Made by a program: the position numbers and the translations under genes. Positions 16,294 to 57,283 of a stretch of DNA of 64,000 bases are shown here, piece after piece. The notes under the pieces were generated by a model. It was not told where the DNA came from. It saw only the letters and a list, made by a program, of their open reading frames with translations, and did no database searches. Positions within the stretch are counted from its first letter, which is position 1, and each line of letters starts with the position of its first letter. The stretch comes from Alphaproteobacteria bacterium. Its GTDB lineage: Bacteria > Pseudomonadota > Alphaproteobacteria > Sphingomonadales > Sphingomonadaceae. The stretch is taken from the NCBI GenBank assembly GCA_005883305.1, contig VBAC01000001.1, positions 1,178,001-1,242,000 of the forward strand, in the 5' to 3' direction.

Positions 16294-18318
16294 TCAGCCT
16301 GCGATCAAGCTGATGAGTTCGTCGGTTGCAACAGGCGGAGCGCACAGGAACCCCTGGTACATCGTGCAGCCCTCCTCGGCGAGCAGGGCCAGCTGCTCCT
16401 CGGTCTCCACCCCCTCGGCGATCACGTCGAGGCCGAGCGAGCGCGCCATCTCGATCACGCTCCTCACCACCACCCGGTCGCGGGCCGATCCGGCGATGTC
16501 CTGCGAGAGCCTCTTGTCGAGCTTGAGATAGTCGAGCGGAAGCGCCTTCAGATAAGCGAGGCTCGAATAGCCGGTGCCGAAATCGTCGATCGCCGCGCGA
16601 AGGCCCCCGCTCCTCAGCTCCGCCAGCAAAGCCGCCGCCGCCGCCAGATCCTCGATCAGCCCGCTCTCGGTGACCTCGACCGTCAGCCGCTCGGGCGCGA
16701 AGCCGCTCTCGCGCACCGAGGCGAGGAACTGGCCGGCGAAGCCCGGGCGGGCGATGTCGGCGGCGGTGATGTTGACCGCGAGCCTCAGGTGGCCGAGCGC
16801 CTCGGGCCAGGCGGCCGCGGCGGCGATCGCCTTGCGCTGCACATGGTCCGAAAGCTGGGCGAGATAGTCCGAGCCCTCGGCCACTCCGAACAGGGTCGCA
16901 GCGCCCAATTCGCCATATTGCGGGTGCCGCCAGCGCGCGAGCGCCTCGACCCCGCTGATCGCGCCGCTCGTTACCGAGACCTGCGGCTGGAAGCGGATCT
17001 CGATCTCGTCCTGGTCGAGCGCACGCCTGAGGTCGACCTCGAGCCGGTCGCCGCGCGCGGTGGCGCTTTCGGCGCCTGCCTCGATCACATGGACCGGCGC
17101 GCCCTCGCCCCCCGCTTCGGCGAGCGCGGCGCTTGCCCGGCGAAGGAAGGCGGCCGCGTCGTCGCCCGGCGCCGCGGCGGCGATCCCGGCGCGGCTGCCG
17201 AGGTTGATGACATGATCGCCGGAGACGAACGGCCGGCCGATCGCCTCGATCAGCTCGCCGGCGAGGAACTGGCCGTCTGCGAGGCTGGCGGGCGCGGCGA
17301 GCAACACGGCGAACTCGGCGCCCGCCATGCGCGCGACCAGCCGCGGCCGCGCCGCGCCGCCGACATGGCGCTCGATCCGCCGCCCCACCGCCTGAAGCAC
17401 CGCGTCGCCCGTCTGGCGGCCGAAGGCGGCGTTGATCGCGTCGTAGCGGCTGACCGAGAGGAGCACTGCGACCAGGGGACAGTTACTAGTAACTGTCCCC
17501 GCTTTCTCACTAGTAACTGTCCCCGCTTTCTCGGCGGCCAATTGCTCGGCGATCCAGGCGCGCGCGGTCCGGCCGTCGGCGAGCCCTGTGAGCGGGTCGC
17601 GGCCCTGCGGCCCGCGTCTGATCGCCTCGGCGCGACCGACCACGTCGCCCTCGCTTCGCCGCAGGTGATGGGCGATCCGCTCACCGCCCTCCTCGTCATG
17701 GGCGAAGGCGGTCGCCTCGCCGGTTTCCAGCAGCCGGTCGACCGCGTCGCGCGCCGCGCGCCTTCCGGCGGGGTCGAGCTTTCGGAACAGGTCCATCAGG
17801 CTGATCCGGCCGCCTTCGCCGGCGCCGAAGCCGACCTGCCGGGCGAGCGCCGGCGAAAGCTCGACGGTGCGCGATCCCGGCTGCCAGCGCCACGAGGCGG
17901 AATCGGCCGCCTCGCCTGCCCGCCGGGTCGTGCGCAGGTCGCCGCCGACCCGCTCGGCATGGCGCCGGGCGAACTGCAGGGCCTGGACGAGCTGGACATC
18001 GGGAAACGGGCTGACGAGGAAATGGGTCGCGCCGTGGCGGTGGAAGGTCTCGAGCGCCGCGGCATCGCCCCTGGAGAGCAGCACCAGCAGGGCCGCGGCA
18101 TTGGCCTCGGCCGCGTCGGCGATCGCCCGCACCGCTTCCTGCCCCTCGGCCAGAGCGCCGCGCGCATCGATCACCGCCACCGAGGCGCCCGAAGCGACGA
18201 ACCGCGCCTCGGCATTGTCCGCCCGCCGCGCCGCGATCGGCTGCCACCCGGCGCCCTCGGCAAGGCGCGACAATTCGTCGCGATGGCGAAAGGAAAGAAT
18301 GAAGAGCGGTGCTCCCAT
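16294..18318 (-). CDS. degenerate GGDEF / intact EAL cyclic-di-GMP phosphodiesterase
   Basis: A 674-residue cytosolic protein. Residues 1-120 look like a degenerate receiver fold (VAVIDARG, LVLLSRGD, HFLVSPFP). Residues 235-415 form a GGDEF domain whose catalytic loop is AGAEF (332-336), so diguanylate cyclase activity is probably lost and the domain may sense GTP or be structural. Residues 430-674 form an EAL domain with the catalytic features intact: E458 in EAL, VNITAAD, DDFGTGYSS and AEGVETE, predicting c-di-GMP hydrolysis. Within the GGDEF domain, residues 263-282 come from a REP-like palindrome with a 24-bp tandem duplication (repeated EKAGTVTS) inserted in frame. The PilZ protein at 31757 is a possible c-di-GMP receptor in the same window. 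Confidence 0.9.
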   Translation of the reverse strand: MGAPLFILSFRHRDELSRLAEGAGWQPIAARRADNAEARFVASGASVAVIDARGALAEGQEAVRAIADAAEANAAALLVLLSRGDAAALETFHRHGATHFLVSPFPDVQLVQALQFARRHAERVGGDLRTTRRAGEAADSASWRWQPGSRTVELSPALARQVGFGAGEGGRISLMDLFRKLDPAGRRAARDAVDRLLETGEATAFAHDEEGGERIAHHLRRSEGDVVGRAEAIRRGPQGRDPLTGLADGRTARAWIAEQLAAEKAGTVTSEKAGTVTSNCPLVAVLLSVSRYDAINAAFGRQTGDAVLQAVGRRIERHVGGAARPRLVARMAGAEFAVLLAAPASLADGQFLAGELIEAIGRPFVSGDHVINLGSRAGIAAAAPGDDAAAFLRRASAALAEAGGEGAPVHVIEAGAESATARGDRLEVDLRRALDQDEIEIRFQPQVSVTSGAISGVEALARWRHPQYGELGAATLFGVAEGSDYLAQLSDHVQRKAIAAAAAWPEALGHLRLAVNITAADIARPGFAGQFLASVRESGFAPERLTVEVTESGLIEDLAAAAALLAELRSGGLRAAIDDFGTGYSSLAYLKALPLDYLKLDKRLSQDIAGSARDRVVVRSVIEMARSLGLDVIAEGVETEEQLALLAEEGCTMYQGFLCAPPVATDELISLIAG
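17475..17532. repeat. REP-like palindrome with 24-bp tandem duplication inside a coding sequence
   Basis: A perfect 26-bp palindrome (17475-17500; arms GGGGACAGTTACT and AGTAACTGTCCCC) overlaps two exact tandem copies of a 24-bp unit (17485-17508 and 17509-17532). All lie in the GGDEF-coding region, and the 24-bp unit keeps the frame. The arm sequence resembles REP palindromes associated with TnpA-REP (RAYT) transposases, an inference from memory of such repeats. Confidence 0.85.
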
Positions 18319-18386: not shown

Positions 18387-18782
18387 TCAGGCCATCGCGG
18401 ATTGCAGACCCACATGCGCGACGAAGGGCGCGAAATCGCGGCCGGCGGAGAGCAAGGCGGCGCCGTTGCGGAGGCACCAGGTCGCGATCAAAGTATCGAT
18501 CGTCTTGCGCACTATCACGCCCTTGGCGCGTAGCAGCCGGTAATTGCGAGCGGCCTCGACCGCGGCGTCGCGCCCGCCCACTTCGACGATCGTGAGCGTG
18601 TCGAACAGGCGAAGCGCCGTTCGGAAATCGCGCTCCGAGTCGAACCCTTGCAGAACTTCGGTCAGGACCACGTCGCCGGTGACCAACTCGTCTTCGCCGA
18701 GGAGCGCGTCGAGCCGGTCGGCCTCCGGCGTCGGGGCGCCGCGGAAATAGTCGATCCACACGCTCGAATCGACGAAGATCAT
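18387..18782 (-). CDS. vapC: PIN-domain ribonuclease toxin, VapC type
   Basis: A 131-residue PIN-domain protein. The acidic metal-binding residues are seen in FVDSSVWIDYF (N-terminal Asp), in TEVLQGF (Glu), and in KTIDTLIATW (Asp), with LSAGRDFAPF near the end. VapC toxins are Mg-dependent RNases that cut tRNA or rRNA and are neutralised by VapB. The start at 18782 gives the conserved MIFVDSSVW; an upstream in-frame ATG at 18806 would overlap the antitoxin gene. The antitoxin ends 10 bases upstream, so the pair is one operon. Confidence 0.88.
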   Translation of the reverse strand: MIFVDSSVWIDYFRGAPTPEADRLDALLGEDELVTGDVVLTEVLQGFDSERDFRTALRLFDTLTIVEVGGRDAAVEAARNYRLLRAKGVIVRKTIDTLIATWCLRNGAALLSAGRDFAPFVAHVGLQSAMA

Positions 18783-18792
18783 GCCTGCGGGA

Positions 18793-18996
18793 TCACTCGG
18801 CGCCATCCGTCCGCATCGCCTCCAGATCGCCGGTCCACGAGGTCAGCTTGCCGCGATGCTCCCGGATGCTTGCCTGCCGCCGCAACCGCACCAGCGCGCG
18901 CAGGCCAAGCTCGACCGTTTCTCGCTTGGTCGCCGCGCCGCTGGCTTTCATCGCCGCGTCCATCAGCGCGTCGTTAATGACGATATTTGTCCGCAT
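18793..18996 (-). CDS. vapB: VapB-family antitoxin
   Basis: A 67-residue protein of the type II VapB/DUF2191 antitoxin class: MRTNIVINDALMDAAMKAS is the DNA-binding N-terminus, followed by ATKRETVELGLRALVRL and a C-terminal toxin-binding tail rich in Trp/Asp. The ATG at 18996 matches the family's normal start. It is expected to neutralise the VapC encoded next to it and to repress its own promoter in the 93-base spacer before nadK. Confidence 0.85.
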   Translation of the reverse strand: MRTNIVINDALMDAAMKASGAATKRETVELGLRALVRLRRQASIREHRGKLTSWTGDLEAMRTDGAE

Positions 18997-19872: not shown

Positions 19873-19938
19873 AAAGAGGCCGCCGTGGGTTGCATCGCGG
19901 CGGCGCCTTGCTATAGCCGCGCCTCGCCGAAAGGCTGC

Positions 19939-20013
19939 TCCCCGGTAGCTCAGTGGTAGAGCGTTCGACTGTTAATCGAATGGTCGCTGGTTCGAATCCG
20001 GCCCGGGGAGCCA
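19939..20013 (+). tRNA. tRNA-Asn (anticodon GTT)
   Basis: The 75-base sequence folds as a cloverleaf: acceptor TCCCCGG pairs with CCGGGGA (20003-20009), D-arm GCTCAGTGGTAGAGC, anticodon loop CTGTTAA giving GTT, and T-arm GGTTCGAATCC. The discriminator base is G and the 3' CCA is encoded. It stands alone downstream of nadK. Confidence 0.97.
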
Positions 20014-20057
20014 TTTCCAACATTTCCGCTTCCTCCACCCGCCGCCGAATCGCGAGC

Positions 20058-20083
20058 GCGGCCGGAGCTTTGGCCCCGGCCGC
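20058..20083 (-). terminator. GC-rich hairpin downstream of the nine-module gene
   Basis: The arms GCGGCCGG and CCGGCCGC enclose a 10-base loop. It lies about 30 bases beyond the end of the minus-strand gene at 20113 and downstream of the tRNA, so it may end either transcript. There is no T-run, so intrinsic termination is uncertain. Confidence 0.35.
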
Positions 20084-20112
20084 ACCTTGCGCCCTAAGAC
20101 GGATGTGTCGGA

Positions 20113-21411
20113 TCAGCTTGCCGCGTCGGCGAGCGCGACCTTGCGCATCCGGCGGCGACCCACTGCACGCTTGGCGACCGCCGCCCGCGCCAGTCGCCGG
20201 CCCGGGCCGGCCCCCTCGCCTTCGTCCTCATCCGCACCATCATCGTCCCCTTCGCCGCGCTCGTGGAAGAGCTTGGTGAGGATCAGCCGGCGCAGCCGCC
20301 GGCGGCGGACGCCCTTGGCGAAGAAGAGCTTGGCGAGGCGATTGTCGTCGCCGCCCTCCTCCCCGATGTCGTCGTCGTCTTCATCGTCCGAGTCCATGCG
20401 GCGGGCCACCAGAGCCGCGCTTCCGAACCGGCGGCGGCGCATCCTTTTGGCCATCAGCAGCTTCGCCAGGCGGTGCTCCTCGCCGCCTTCCCCGTCATCG
20501 TCGATGTCGAGATCGTCGTCATCGTCATCGGTATCGGCGCGCAGATGGCGCGCCAGCATCGCGGCACGGGCGAACCGGCGGCGACGCAGCTTTCTGGCGA
20601 ACAGGAACTGCGCGAGCCGGTGCTCTTCGCCGCCGCCCTCGTCGTCGATGTCGATGCCGTCGTCATCGTCGTCGTCGTCGGCATCGGACCGCAGATAACG
20701 GGCGATCATCGCCGCGCGTCCGAACCTGCGGCGACGCATCCGTCTGGCCAGTAGCAGCTTCGCCAGGCGATGCTCGCCGCCGCCCTCCTCATCCTCGTCG
20801 TCGATGTCCTCGTCGTCTTCATCCGATCGCGCGCGCAGGAAGCGCGCGATCAGCGCGGCACGGGCGAACCGGCGGCGGCGCATCTTCCTGGCGAAGAGGA
20901 GGCGGGCCAGGCGATGCTCCTCGCCGCCCTCCTCCTCGTCGTCGATCTCGTCCCCATCATCCTCATCGCTCGAGCGGGCCTCCAGCAGGCGGGCAATGAG
21001 GGCAGCGCGGCCGATCCTCCGGCGGCGCATCTTGCGGCCGAGCAGGAAGCGGACCAGCCGGCCGTCGCCGTCATCGTCCTCGTCGTCCACCTCCTCGCCG
21101 TTATCGCCGTCGTCGCGCTGACGGATCAGGTGGGCGACGAACAACCGGCGCAGTCGCCGGCGCCGGGCCGCGCTGCCGAGCAGGAGGGCCGCGAGGCGAT
21201 GATCCTCGCCGCCTTCGTCCTCATCTTCGTCGATGTCGCCGACCGTGTCGCAGTCGTCCCCCTGCCGGTCGCGAAGCAGCCGGGCGATCAGCAGACGGCG
21301 CAGGCGCTTGCCCTTGGCCATCCTGCCCCCTGCGAGGATCCTGGCCAGATCGTCGTCGTCTCGCCCGCCGAACCGGCCGGCGCCGTTATGAGCTGCATAA
21401 GTCATCTTCAC
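20113..21411 (-). CDS. nine-module acidic/arginine-rich repeat protein, function unknown
   Basis: A 432-residue soluble protein built of nine modules with a period of roughly 43-50 residues. Each has a hydrophobic-basic amphipathic stretch (consensus HRLAKLLxARRMRRRRFGRA followed by AxIARxLR) preceded by an Asp/Glu/Gly linker; basic segments fall at about residues 18-50, 69-100, 116-147, 164-196, 212-243, 262-293, 311-342, 355-387 and 404-431. Modules 4-7 are the most alike; the terminal ones have drifted. There is no signal peptide, transmembrane span, cysteine cluster or enzyme motif (one Cys, residue 54). The result is a charge-patterned polyampholyte. Binding to nucleic acid, polyphosphate or membranes, or self-assembly, is possible but not shown. 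It lies 21 bases downstream of a 155-residue partner on the same strand. I recognise no family. Codon usage matches the neighbours. Confidence 0.75.
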   Translation of the reverse strand: MKMTYAAHNGAGRFGGRDDDDLARILAGGRMAKGKRLRRLLIARLLRDRQGDDCDTVGDIDEDEDEGGEDHRLAALLLGSAARRRRLRRLFVAHLIRQRDDGDNGEEVDDEDDDGDGRLVRFLLGRKMRRRRIGRAALIARLLEARSSDEDDGDEIDDEEEGGEEHRLARLLFARKMRRRRFARAALIARFLRARSDEDDEDIDDEDEEGGGEHRLAKLLLARRMRRRRFGRAAMIARYLRSDADDDDDDDGIDIDDEGGGEEHRLAQFLFARKLRRRRFARAAMLARHLRADTDDDDDDLDIDDDGEGGEEHRLAKLLMAKRMRRRRFGSAALVARRMDSDDEDDDDIGEEGGDDNRLAKLFFAKGVRRRRLRRLILTKLFHERGEGDDDGADEDEGEGAGPGRRLARAAVAKRAVGRRRMRKVALADAAS

Positions 21412-21432
21412 TCTCCTCGTTGGGACGGTGGA

Positions 21433-21900
21433 TCAGTGCGGCGTGGTGCCTGCGGTGGTCGCGGCCTGTGCGATCAGCGTGCCGACGATGGCGCGGTTGA
21501 GGACCTCGCTCTCGGTCAGCTGCCGGGCGCGGCTTCGCTCGAGGAGCGATTGCAGCAGCATCGCGCTGAGCTCGTCGTCGGCCCTGGATTCGGTGGGGTG
21601 CGCCTCGCCGTCGTCGCCGAGGACGCACTCGATTCCGGCTTCGAACGCCTGCTCGACGAGCCGGCGGACCGTGGCGCCCGCCTTGATCCTGGCAAGACGG
21701 GCCTTGTCCTCGGCCGACAGCGCCTGGTGCGCGCCCGTCGCGTCCAGCCGCTCGAGCTTCACGATCCGCCCATTGGCGGCGTCGATCGTCAAGGCGAAGA
21801 GGTCCGGCGGGGTCACCTGCGGCTCGGGCGCCTTCGGCTTGCGCTTGTCGGGTGCGGCGGCCTTGGGGTCGGCCGGGGCGGCTTCGTCATTTGTGGGCAT
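21433..21900 (-). CDS. unknown protein, first gene of the nine-module protein operon
   Basis: A 155-residue soluble protein. Residues 1-33 are a Pro/Ala/Lys-rich, probably disordered tail (MPTNDEAAPADPKAAAPDKR). The rest looks globular: a beta-rich patch (DLFALTIDAANGRIVKLERLD), then helices (SAEDKARLARIKAGATVRRL, AFEAGIECVLGDDGE, ELSAMLLQSLLERSRAR, SEVLNRAIVGTLIAQAATTA). It contains one cysteine and no membrane span. The nine-module gene begins 21 bases downstream, so they form an operon. No family is recognised; a partner or regulator role for the repeat protein is inferred from linkage alone. Confidence 0.65.
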   Translation of the reverse strand: MPTNDEAAPADPKAAAPDKRKPKAPEPQVTPPDLFALTIDAANGRIVKLERLDATGAHQALSAEDKARLARIKAGATVRRLVEQAFEAGIECVLGDDGEAHPTESRADDELSAMLLQSLLERSRARQLTESEVLNRAIVGTLIAQAATTAGTTPH

Positions 21901-21962
21901 GACAGTCTCCAGTTGCGGATGCGCTCCTCGAACGGGGTCATTCGCTCGCGGCCCGGCGCCGG

Positions 21963-21984
21963 CGCCTGGAGAGGGTTCCAGGCG
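21963..21984. promoter_or_regulatory. inverted repeat upstream of the 155-residue gene
   Basis: The arms CGCCTGGA and TCCAGGCG are perfect 8-base inverted repeats around a 6-base spacer, 63 bases upstream of the start at 21900. Position fits an operator for the two-gene operon. The remainder of the 326-base divergent spacer (21901-22226) holds the candidate hemerythrin promoter and nothing else I can support. Confidence 0.3.
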
Positions 21985-22171
21985 ACCTGTGCGGTTCCGA
22001 AGATCGAATGCGGCGCGCGAGTGGAGCGGCCGGAACGGTCATAGGCCTGCGGTCAGGCGGCGATAGTCGGGTTCATTGCCCATGGCCGGCTCCGGGTACA
22101 TCCCGAGGCAACTAACCCGCAGGCGCGGCTCGGGCCGTAGCGCGAACGCGGTGAACGGAGGGCATGGTTCG

Positions 22172-22197
22172 GGAACCGCTCCGCCCGGCGATGTGTT
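22172..22197 (+). promoter_or_regulatory. candidate EcfG (general stress) promoter
   Basis: The sequence GGAAC, a 17-base spacer and TGTT resemble the alphaproteobacterial EcfG consensus GGAAC-N16/17-CGTT, with one mismatch in the -10 element. It ends 29 bases before the hemerythrin start. Hemerythrin-like and other small stress proteins are frequent EcfG targets, which supports the reading. Confidence 0.45.
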
Positions 22198-22226
22198 TGC
22201 AGGGACAAAGAAAAGAGGAGGCGAAC

Positions 22227-22841
22227 ATGGCGACCCGTACCCGTTCCAGATCGACCAACGAGAACAGCGAAAGCGGCGGCGGCGGCCGGACATCCTCCGG
22301 CTGGTCGGGCGGCCAGGCCGGCGTGCTCGCGGCCGCGGCGGTGGCCGGAGCGGCGGTCGGGCTCGCCGCCAATTACGGGCGCAAGATGGTCGTCCAGAGC
22401 ATGACCGGCGATTGGCAGGAGATGCTGGAGGCCGAGCACGACATGGTCCGCGCCCTGTTCGACAAGCTTGAAGCGACCGAGGACGGCCAGACCTGGATCC
22501 GCGCCCACACGCTCACCAAGATCAAGAACGCGCTCGGCAAGCACGCGCTCCAGGAGGAGAACGTCATCTACCCCGCGCTCCGCGAGGCGAACCAGGCGCA
22601 CGACGCCGACGCGCTCAACGGCGAGCACGGCTACATCAAGACCTACCTCTACGAACTCGACACCATGCCCAAGGAAGGCGCCGCCTGGCTCGAAAAGGCG
22701 CGCGAGTTCCGCGCCATGCTCGACGAGCATATGCGGATGGAGGAGGAGCAGGTCTTCCCCGCCTTCCGCGCCGCGCTCAGCGAGGAGCAGAGCGACAGGC
22801 TCACCACGGCGATGCAGCGCGAGGGAATGAAGCTCGCCTGA
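22227..22841 (+). CDS. hemerythrin HHE-domain protein
   Basis: A 204-residue protein. Residues 1-25 are Ser/Gly/Arg-rich; residues 30-50 form one hydrophobic span (GVLAAAAVAGAAVGLAANYG), so it is probably anchored in the inner membrane. The rest is a four-helix hemerythrin-type bundle with diiron-ligand candidates in AEHDMVRALF, KHALQEENVIYPAL, GEHGYIKTY and DEHMRMEEEQVFPAF. Such proteins bind O2, NO or iron or act in oxidative stress. The ATG at 22227 follows a strong ribosome site (AGAGGAGG); in-frame codons upstream lack one. A candidate EcfG promoter lies upstream. Confidence 0.85.
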   Translation: MATRTRSRSTNENSESGGGGRTSSGWSGGQAGVLAAAAVAGAAVGLAANYGRKMVVQSMTGDWQEMLEAEHDMVRALFDKLEATEDGQTWIRAHTLTKIKNALGKHALQEENVIYPALREANQAHDADALNGEHGYIKTYLYELDTMPKEGAAWLEKAREFRAMLDEHMRMEEEQVFPAFRAALSEEQSDRLTTAMQREGMKLA

Positions 22842-22868
22842 CCGGGCAGGCCACGGCGATGGTCGCGC

Positions 22869-56053: not shown

Positions 56054-57283
56054 ATGTCTGTACGAATGGCTTTGGCAAAACTCTGCGCCTGCACCTGCGG
56101 CGGCGCGATCATCGGCGCCGGCGCGACCCATGTCGCGGAGAACCCGCCGCCCCGGCCCGCGGTCCGCTCGGCGCATGCGTGCTGCGCCGCAAGCGCTTCC
56201 CGCTCCTCTTATCGCTCTTCGTACCGCGCGAGCGGCCGCCGCCTGGTCCGCCGGACCGTCCGGCGCACCTATGCGGCGCAGCCGCAGACCGTCACCCGGA
56301 TGATCATCCCGCCGATGTTCGCGCCTCCGCCGCCTCCCGTGGCCATCGCCAGCAGCGGCGGCGGCGGCGTGCCGATCGTCATCGGCGGCTCCGGCGGCTT
56401 CTTCGGCGGCTCGGGCGGCTTCTTCTCGGGCGGCTTCTTCGGCGGCAGCTCGACCGGCGGCACGATCACCATCAACAACGGCCAGGACCAGGCCAGCTCC
56501 GGCACCAGCAGCGGCACCAGCAGCGGCGTGGTCAATCCGACCTCGGCGAGCGGATCGAGCGGCTTGACCAGCACCAGCACCAGCACCAGCACCAGCACGA
56601 GCAGCGGAACGAGCTCCGGTACCAGCAGCGGCACCAGCTCCGGCACGAGCTCCGGCACCCCGGACCAGCAGAGTGCGAGCAACGGCGGCGCCAGCGGAAC
56701 CGGCGGCATCATCATCAACATCAACAACAGCAACGAAAACAGCACCAGCACGAGCAGCGGCACGAACACCAACACCAACACTGGCGGCAACAACACCAAT
56801 ACGAACAGCAACGAGCAGGGCCAGAACCAGAACCAGAATCAAAACCAGAATCAAAACCAGAACCAGAATCAGAACGAGAATCAGAACCAGAACCAGAACC
56901 AGAACGGGTCCAGCAGCAGCTCGTCGGGCGGGCGCGGCCATCACGGCCACGGCTCGTCGGGCAGCTCCTCGTCGAGCTCGACCAGCTCCGGCACCAGCGG
57001 GTCGACCAGCTCCAGCTCCGGCGCGAGCACCGGCTCGAGCAGCTTCGGCTCCTCGGCCAGCGGAAGCACCAGCGGGTCCTCGTCGGGAAGCTCGTCGACC
57101 TCGGGCAGCTCGTCCACGTCGGGCAGCTCCTCGTCGAGCGGCAGCTCCTCGGGCTCCTCTTCGGGATCGACCGGCGGGACCCACGTTCCGGCCCCGCCGA
57201 TGATCCTCCTGTTCGGCGCCGGCGCCGCGACGCTCGTCGCCCGCGCCCGACTCGGCAAGCGCGCGAAGGCCGCCACGGCCTGA
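56054..57283 (+). CDS. Ser/Thr/Asn/Gln/Gly-rich surface protein with PEP-CTERM-like tail
   Basis: A 409-residue low-complexity protein. Residues 1-28 include a hydrophobic stretch (LAKLCACTCGGAIIGAGA), probably a signal or anchor; residues 50-75 are Arg/Ser/Tyr-rich (LVRRTVRRTY); 84-100 is a proline patch (IIPPMFAPPPPPV). Then come Gly/Phe repeats, Ser-Gly-Thr repeats, an Asn/Thr region, about 14 Gln-Asn dipeptides (257-284) and a Ser/Gly region. The C-terminus has VPAPP (378-382), a hydrophobic span and basic residues (RARLGKR), the layout of PEP-CTERM sorting signals. Export and processing of PEP-CTERM proteins depend on exosortase, not encoded here. The Asn/Gln and Gly/Ser stretches suggest an extended or amyloid-prone extracellular polymer. 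The start at 56054 fits the hydrophobic N-terminus. Confidence 0.75.
   Translation: MSVRMALAKLCACTCGGAIIGAGATHVAENPPPRPAVRSAHACCAASASRSSYRSSYRASGRRLVRRTVRRTYAAQPQTVTRMIIPPMFAPPPPPVAIASSGGGGVPIVIGGSGGFFGGSGGFFSGGFFGGSSTGGTITINNGQDQASSGTSSGTSSGVVNPTSASGSSGLTSTSTSTSTSTSSGTSSGTSSGTSSGTSSGTPDQQSASNGGASGTGGIIININNSNENSTSTSSGTNTNTNTGGNNTNTNSNEQGQNQNQNQNQNQNQNQNQNENQNQNQNQNGSSSSSSGGRGHHGHGSSGSSSSSSTSSGTSGSTSSSSGASTGSSSFGSSASGSTSGSSSGSSSTSGSSSTSGSSSSSGSSSGSSSGSTGGTHVPAPPMILLFGAGAATLVARARLGKRAKAATA

Follow-up and report, generated by a model that had tools for sequence, protein, structure and literature searches.

Between the genes for an NAD kinase and for SecA, the window (the whole stretch of 64,000 nucleotides analysed here) carries, in order, NAD kinase (+), tRNA-Asn (+), a gene for a repeat protein (-), a partner gene (-), a gene for a hemerythrin HHE-domain protein (+) and SecA (-) (Table 1). 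The initial annotation had placed a charge-alternating repeat protein at 20113-21411, and our analysis confirms an open reading frame of 432 codons there, on the minus strand. Its extent is altered at one end: two codons inside the listed GTG start lies an ATG at 21405 that is preceded by GAGGAG (DNA upstream of the gene, GAGGAGAGTGAAGATG), and because of this upstream motif we take the ATG as the likelier start. The resulting protein of 430 residues has a pI of about 5.6 and contains 83 Arg, 72 Asp, 35 Glu and 13 Lys.

The repeat gene is a real coding gene. Its base composition by codon position (0.81, 0.45 and 0.84) and its choice of Arg, Asp and Glu codons resemble those of the neighbouring genes, and a codon score trained on four other genes of the window gives it 104.6, against 22.4 and 2.4 for two long overlapping reading frames on the plus strand; antisense reading frames are common in GC-rich DNA. 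Sequences like ribosome-binding sites can be read before both the repeat gene and the partner gene, which ends 27 bases before the ATG on the same strand, and the two genes probably form one operon. No sigma-70-like site was found in 19900-22300; two terminator-like sites were (0.9 ± 0.9 in shuffles), one of them lying within the repeat gene, on the minus strand. The start of the HHE gene was placed from the MAT(K/R) start of several relatives, and the best plasmid matches of its protein are four Sphingobium records, followed by Azospirillum; together with the genes present, they suggest an origin in Sphingomonadales.

Table 1. Features of the locus, with positions in the window and residue numbers of the repeat protein counted from the ATG
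Feature	Position	Strand	Remarks
tRNA-Asn (gtt)	19939..20013	+	marks one edge of the variable slot
Repeat protein gene, 430 aa	20113..21405	-	ATG start behind GAGGAG
Module 1	21208..21354	-	residues 18-66; divergent core without RRRR, with acidic linker; marginal
Module 2	21070..21207	-	residues 67-112; RRRRLRRL variant in common with module 8
Module 3	20923..21069	-	residues 113-161
Module 4	20779..20922	-	residues 162-209
Module 5	20629..20778	-	residues 210-259
Module 6	20482..20628	-	residues 260-308
Module 7	20350..20481	-	residues 309-352; shortest linker (12 residues)
Module 8	20206..20349	-	residues 353-400; RRRRLRRL variant
Basic C-terminal tail ("module 9" of the initial annotation)	20116..20205	-	residues 401-430; no linker
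Partner gene, 155 aa, orphan	21433..21900	-	upstream of the repeat gene
Hemerythrin HHE-domain gene	22227..22841	+	other side of the slot; start at 22227 inferred

The interval between tRNA-Asn and SecA in the genus

Searches of the 26 genus genomes located NAD kinase in 25 and SecA likewise in 25. Among the 25 congeners, 19 have the two genes close together on one contig, and their interval was fetched; for four more (G009, G011, G021 and G024) the flanks were taken from separate contigs or places, and G004 and G018 were left out. Of the 19 congeners, 18 have tRNA-Asn after NAD kinase, and the tRNA is also seen in two of the separate flanks; the nineteenth congener (G012, locus L044) has the tRNA in inverted orientation with respect to NAD kinase. 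In 15 of the 19 spanning loci the HHE protein has a match. Neither the repeat gene nor the partner occurs in any of the 19 congeners whose slot was read through, and in tblastn of 25 loci at E up to 1 the partner matched none and the repeat protein one, by chance (L037, E 0.10, opposite an alcohol-dehydrogenase-like gene).

The slot between tRNA-Asn and SecA (19939-22868) is variable across the genus and holds different genes in different species. The distance from NAD kinase to SecA is about 3000 bases here and ranges from about 235 (G017) to 5650 (G014) in the 19 congeners. A gene that by its motifs is presumably alcohol-dehydrogenase-like lies in the slot in at least five of the 14 loci examined for coding reading frames (L034, L035, L037, L039 and L044). 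DNA identity stops at 20013-20020, at most 7 bases from the tRNA end, in all 21 tRNA-matching loci, and beyond it there are two short matches only, of 29 bases in L029 (inside the HHE gene) and 37 bases in L040. An integrative element at tRNA-Asn is unsupported, because, with up to 3 mismatches allowed, the window contains a single copy of the 24-base tRNA end, with no repeat at the far edge, and no integrase is seen between tRNA-Asn and the HHE gene; antisense reading frames aside, this interval holds only the two orphan genes, neither with a Pfam family.

Elsewhere in the window, a PIN-domain gene (18387-18806), which we take to be VapC-like, stands between NAD kinase and a GGDEF-EAL gene (16294-18318, minus strand). 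At 17485-17532 the latter contains two perfect in-frame copies of 24 bases, which correspond to about residues 262-278; the Pfam GGDEF match starts there, from profile position 29. This looks like a small repeat inserted in a coding region. A stretch of about 900 bases at 56382-57251 is dense in short tandem repeats with units of 6-36 bases.

Repeat architecture, constraint and search for relatives

Each module joins a basic and hydrophobic core of about 30 residues (30-32, net charge +6 to +10) to an acidic linker of 12-19 residues (net -8 to -12). The linkers differ in sequence and length and the sign of their charge is constant; Gly-Gly closes six of the eight, as read from the sequence, and in seven of the eight at least one Ile, Val or Leu stands inside the acidic run. 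The initial annotation had described nine modules of 43-50 residues, each with a linker, a core and a run of three to four arginines. In leave-one-out tests with profiles built from the hand-aligned cores of modules 2-8, each of these seven outscores all 1000 shuffles, whereas the score of module 1 is reached by 1 of 1000 shuffles and that of the ninth by 77. We therefore regard seven modules as certain, module 1 as probable and the ninth as a basic tail whose homology to the modules is unsupported (77 of 1000 shuffles as good). The described length and the pairing of linker and core accordingly hold for modules 1-8 (44-50 residues when anchored on the arginine run), and not for the ninth, which spans 30 residues and has no acidic linker. 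The arginine run is RRRR in modules 2-8 and RRR in the ninth; module 1 falls outside the description, with KRLRR only.

Modules 4-7 had been called near copies, a term that was too strong, as their cores have identities of 57-80% in protein and of 71-80% in DNA. The picture of ends that have drifted is likewise too simple: modules 2 and 8 have a common variant and 68% DNA identity, as compared with 48-53% between module 2 and modules 3-7. From these core identities we conclude that the array consists of an inner type (modules 3-7) and an outer type (modules 2 and 8). Duplication, as originally proposed, is upheld for modules 2-8 by the core identities and the leave-one-out test. The genome carries no second array, the module profile matching seven places, all of them in the repeat gene.

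Comparison of the modules with each other points to selection on the protein. Synonymous differences exceed non-synonymous ones in 19 of the 21 pairs of modules 2-8 (mean pS 0.53, mean pN 0.33), the exceptions being pair 3-8, where the two are equal to two decimals, and pair 4-8, where the order is reversed. Among modules 3-7 pS is above pN in all ten pairs, with dN/dS of 0.13-0.54 (calculated by hand from the pS and pN values). The other five reading frames give a smaller ratio of pS to pN, one antisense frame reaching 0.44 against 0.36 and the remaining four having pS below pN. The inner-module cores are thus constrained at the protein level, and this constraint is weak or absent against module 8.

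As to the age of the array, the six pairs within modules 4-7 have pS values of 0.39-0.61 (mean 0.48). For NAD kinase, between this genome and the three congeners with the whole gene fetched, pS is 0.34, 0.41 and 0.47 (mean 0.41), so that the ranges overlap. A recent expansion is therefore unlikely. Given equal rates, the module duplications would be about as old as those three species splits, a rough estimate in view of the short cores, the skewed codon use and the NAD kinase alignment, which was ungapped around one anchor.

The absence of a recognised family, as first reported, holds throughout the collections searched. For the repeat protein, the best Pfam match reaches 12.9 bits against a cut-off of 25 (E 0.17), the best PHROG match is a transcriptional regulator over 19 residues (E 0.07, not significant), NCBIfam and PADLOC give nothing at E up to 0.1, the PDB holds no solved relative (best E 0.92), and no relative was found in phage and plasmid records. 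Two scans of viral contigs found none and two scans of genome contigs gave one chance match only; both viral scans and one of the genome scans are weak because their peptide patterns fell on acidic linkers, the other genome scan having used core patterns. That single match, by tblastn of the joined cores in an Acidobacteriaceae record, was inspected and taken as chance. Searches over genome samples brought no relative either. The module profile hits 12 of 396 genomes of the order at E up to 0.01, namely this genome in seven places and eleven others once each, in single short stretches that were all inspected, contain no repeats and were taken as chance; in the class it hits 1 of 385 at E up to 1e-5, its own. 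With the whole protein, 2 of 60 genomes matched, its own and G017 (E 6e-4), and in the family 1 of 397, again its own. The match in G017 is a reading frame opposite or over another gene and is taken as chance.

The partner has no Pfam family and was found only in its own genome among the 60 and among the 397 of the family, where the best 4 (repeat protein) or best 9 (partner) candidates per genome were scored. In the genus it matched 3 of 26 genomes at E up to 0.01: its own, and two by chance (G006 and G022, E 0.0058 and 0.0099), where reading frames lie opposite or over other genes. It is absent from the phages, plasmids and viral contigs searched, and its best PDB match has E 0.83. A module in common with the repeat protein, suggested by eye, was rejected since 674 of 2000 shuffles score as well. 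The repeat protein is thus a new sequence family to every collection searched and is known in one genome, and among the open-licence papers listed on charge blocks, RNase E and Sphingomonas no title concerns such a repeat protein.

Charge pattern and predicted structure

The fraction of charged residues in the repeat protein is 0.47 and its net charge per residue -0.03. Charge segregation is 0.248, against 0.076 ± 0.010 in 500 shuffles (maximum 0.107), and the autocorrelation of charge has maxima at 48 and 97 residues. Of the 38 genes picked in the window, it has the highest charge fraction and the highest segregation. Its approximate kappa is 0.52, compared with 0.39 for the tail of RNase E from the same genome (residue 551 to the end) and 0.15-0.23 for the partner, RNase E 1-500, SecA, the GGDEF-EAL protein and Mfd. 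By SCD the protein is unexceptional, since its value of -2.93 lies about 1.5 standard deviations below shuffles (-0.97 ± 1.34) and RNase E 1-500 is lower still (-3.51); the RNase E tail has +5.47.

The helix that had been claimed for each module is so far a prediction. AlphaFold2, given modules 4-5 with four rows of the protein's own repeats, returned two long helices (2-37 and 48-85) with a mean pLDDT of 68.5 and pTM of 0.29, and a Foldseek search with this two-module model found no match, which is weakly informative for two helices. The partner modelled poorly from its single sequence (pLDDT 50.8). At 100 degrees, the hydrophobic moment of the full core falls short of the average of its shuffles in modules 1-8 and roughly equals that average in module 9, values as high or higher occurring in 64-99.9% and 43% of shuffles, respectively; the halves of the cores taken apart are no higher than shuffles. 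By this test no amphipathic face runs along the cores, and basic residues lie on all sides. The low core moment disfavours amphipathic or coiled-coil helices, and the missing face is easier to reconcile with electrostatic contacts on all sides than with a packed fold or a coiled coil. EF-hand loops in the linkers, a candidate found by eye, do not fit the usual spacing of such loops.

A candidate multivalent scaffold

Because blocks of opposite charge of 12-32 residues are repeated seven to eight times and the inner cores are under selection, we propose, by analogy with the Ki-67 repeats and the Caulobacter RNase E tail, that the repeat protein is a multivalent block-polyampholyte scaffold that would associate with itself and bind polyanions, a tentative reading to which we give a probability of roughly 0.4. 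Each module would supply one Arg-rich hydrophobic sticker, predicted to be helical, and one acidic linker, and a chain of seven to eight such pairs could bind itself through contacts of basic cores with acidic linkers, both in one molecule and from one molecule to another. When a stronger polyanion (RNA, DNA or polyphosphate) is present, the Arg blocks may be handed over to it; a condensate or a compacted nucleoprotein would result, with the 155-residue protein as a possible client or regulator. The rank in segregation and charge fraction, the kappa of 0.52, the constant sign of the linker charge and the constraint on modules 3-7 speak for this scaffold, and a condensate or polyanion-binding role is plausible from the charge pattern and its precedents. 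Against it, those precedents are disordered chains, whereas the cores here are predicted to be helical and are rich in Leu and Ala; the constraint is weak or absent against module 8; with a net charge near zero, the chain could simply fold on itself; SCD is unexceptional, though it is not low in the RNase E tail that serves as precedent either; and, as the protein lacks relatives, no cross-species conservation stands behind a function. A stronger version, in which the protein founds a new lineage-restricted scaffold family with the hydrophobic-Arg helix plus acidic linker as unit of valency, forming a dedicated condensate with the partner as client or switch, seems to us rather doubtful.

The protein might instead bind nucleic acid or the nucleoid with no need to condense, its Arg cores lying on DNA or RNA and its linkers tuning affinity or imitating the phosphate backbone, as is the case for the acidic tails of some DNA-binding proteins. 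Seven consecutive RRRR cores, with basic residues all round them and no amphipathic face, would serve this well; a net charge of about zero, a pI of about 5.6 and the lack of any match to a DNA- or RNA-binding family (the PHROG regulator above being the best) make it rather unlikely. The modules could also be docking sites for the 155-residue protein in a stoichiometric complex, with neither condensate nor nucleic acid. The adjacency of the two genes on one strand with a 27-base gap, and the fact that neither was found in another genome searched, agree with this; the partner has no confidently predicted fold and no common module, and the joint absence of the two genes outside one genome is a weak argument for interaction, so that we think docking quite unlikely. 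To the same degree we discount a gene confined to one lineage, with a slight selected function or none at all, that arose by duplication from GC-rich, trinucleotide-like sequence. Such a gene would account for the lack of relatives in the searches made and for linkers made of GAC, GAT and GAG runs, which could slip easily, and it is opposed by the protein-level constraint among modules 3-7, by codon usage like that of the neighbours with ribosome-binding-like sites before both genes, and by synonymous differences too large for a young array.

Two further readings depend on the cores as helices or peptides. The Leu-, Ala- and Ile-rich cores predicted as long helices could suggest a membrane-surface or coiled-coil scaffold of amphipathic helices, which the low full-core moments of modules 1-8, with halves no higher, render very improbable. 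Least credible of all is a polyprotein precursor in which acidic spacers keep several cationic peptides silent and which a C39 peptidase transporter cleaves after Gly-Gly. Cationic 30-residue cores do alternate with spacers of similar opposite charge, six of eight linkers do end in GG, and the genome does encode one C39-peptidase ABC transporter (L056:3745-5937), its only C39 match, with ECGLASV near the N terminus, whose Cys we take to be at the expected catalytic position. However, this gene, although on the contig of the repeat gene, is about 1.08 million bases distant from it, the cores are non-amphipathic, and the linkers lack the hydrophobic residues that double-glycine leaders have at -4, -7 and -12 before GG.

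Whichever way the scaffold reading falls, bacterial proteins with periodic charge blocks are useful test objects, as their valency can be changed module by module and the effect on phase behaviour followed. Condensation with RNA or DNA would make the repeat protein a condensate scaffold that lacks a sequence match to RNase E and is kept in the variable slot of a single genome, and a failure to condense would set a limit to how far charge pattern alone predicts condensation. Moreover, the repeats of this orphan gene pair seem to be older than the spread in which the pair is known, a point of relevance to the origin of orphan genes.

As a kind of molecule, the repeat protein is a block polyampholyte, which is already known, here in a periodic form with Leu/Ala/Arg cores. 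The magnetosome protein MamJ, like other bacterial proteins with acidic repeats, is also repetitive and has stretches rich in Asp and Glu; the repeats of MamJ are acidic only and are not known to carry Arg-rich cores. A closer likeness in charge pattern is offered by Ki-67, whose repeats drive phase separation through alternating charge blocks according to PMC9106583. Both proteins have tandem repeats with alternating charge blocks; on the same account those of Ki-67, a eukaryotic protein, are made by phosphorylation, and we claim no homology. The average block in charge-block proteins is given there as 30-40 residues, as compared with 30-32 for our cores and 12-19 for our linkers.

The nearest bacterial precedent is RNase E. 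PMC12510024 and PMC10412687 describe alternating charge blocks in the tail of the Caulobacter enzyme, and PMC10412687 describes this tail as sufficient for the phase separation of BR-bodies. In our own genome, RNase E contains an acidic insert at about residues 100-165, and its tail alternates in charge, with long runs of Glu and of Arg. Its tail and the repeat protein are alike in their alternating acidic and Arg-rich blocks (kappa 0.39 and 0.52), a likeness of charge pattern for which no sequence homology is claimed. In contrast to RNase E, the repeat protein has no RNase E/G catalytic domain by Pfam (the single RNase E/G match of the genome is elsewhere), its acid blocks contain more Asp than Glu, and its SCD is -2.93 rather than +5.47. 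Finally, where the RNase E tail is disordered, the repeat protein has a true periodic repeat with Leu- and Ala-rich cores that are predicted to be helical.
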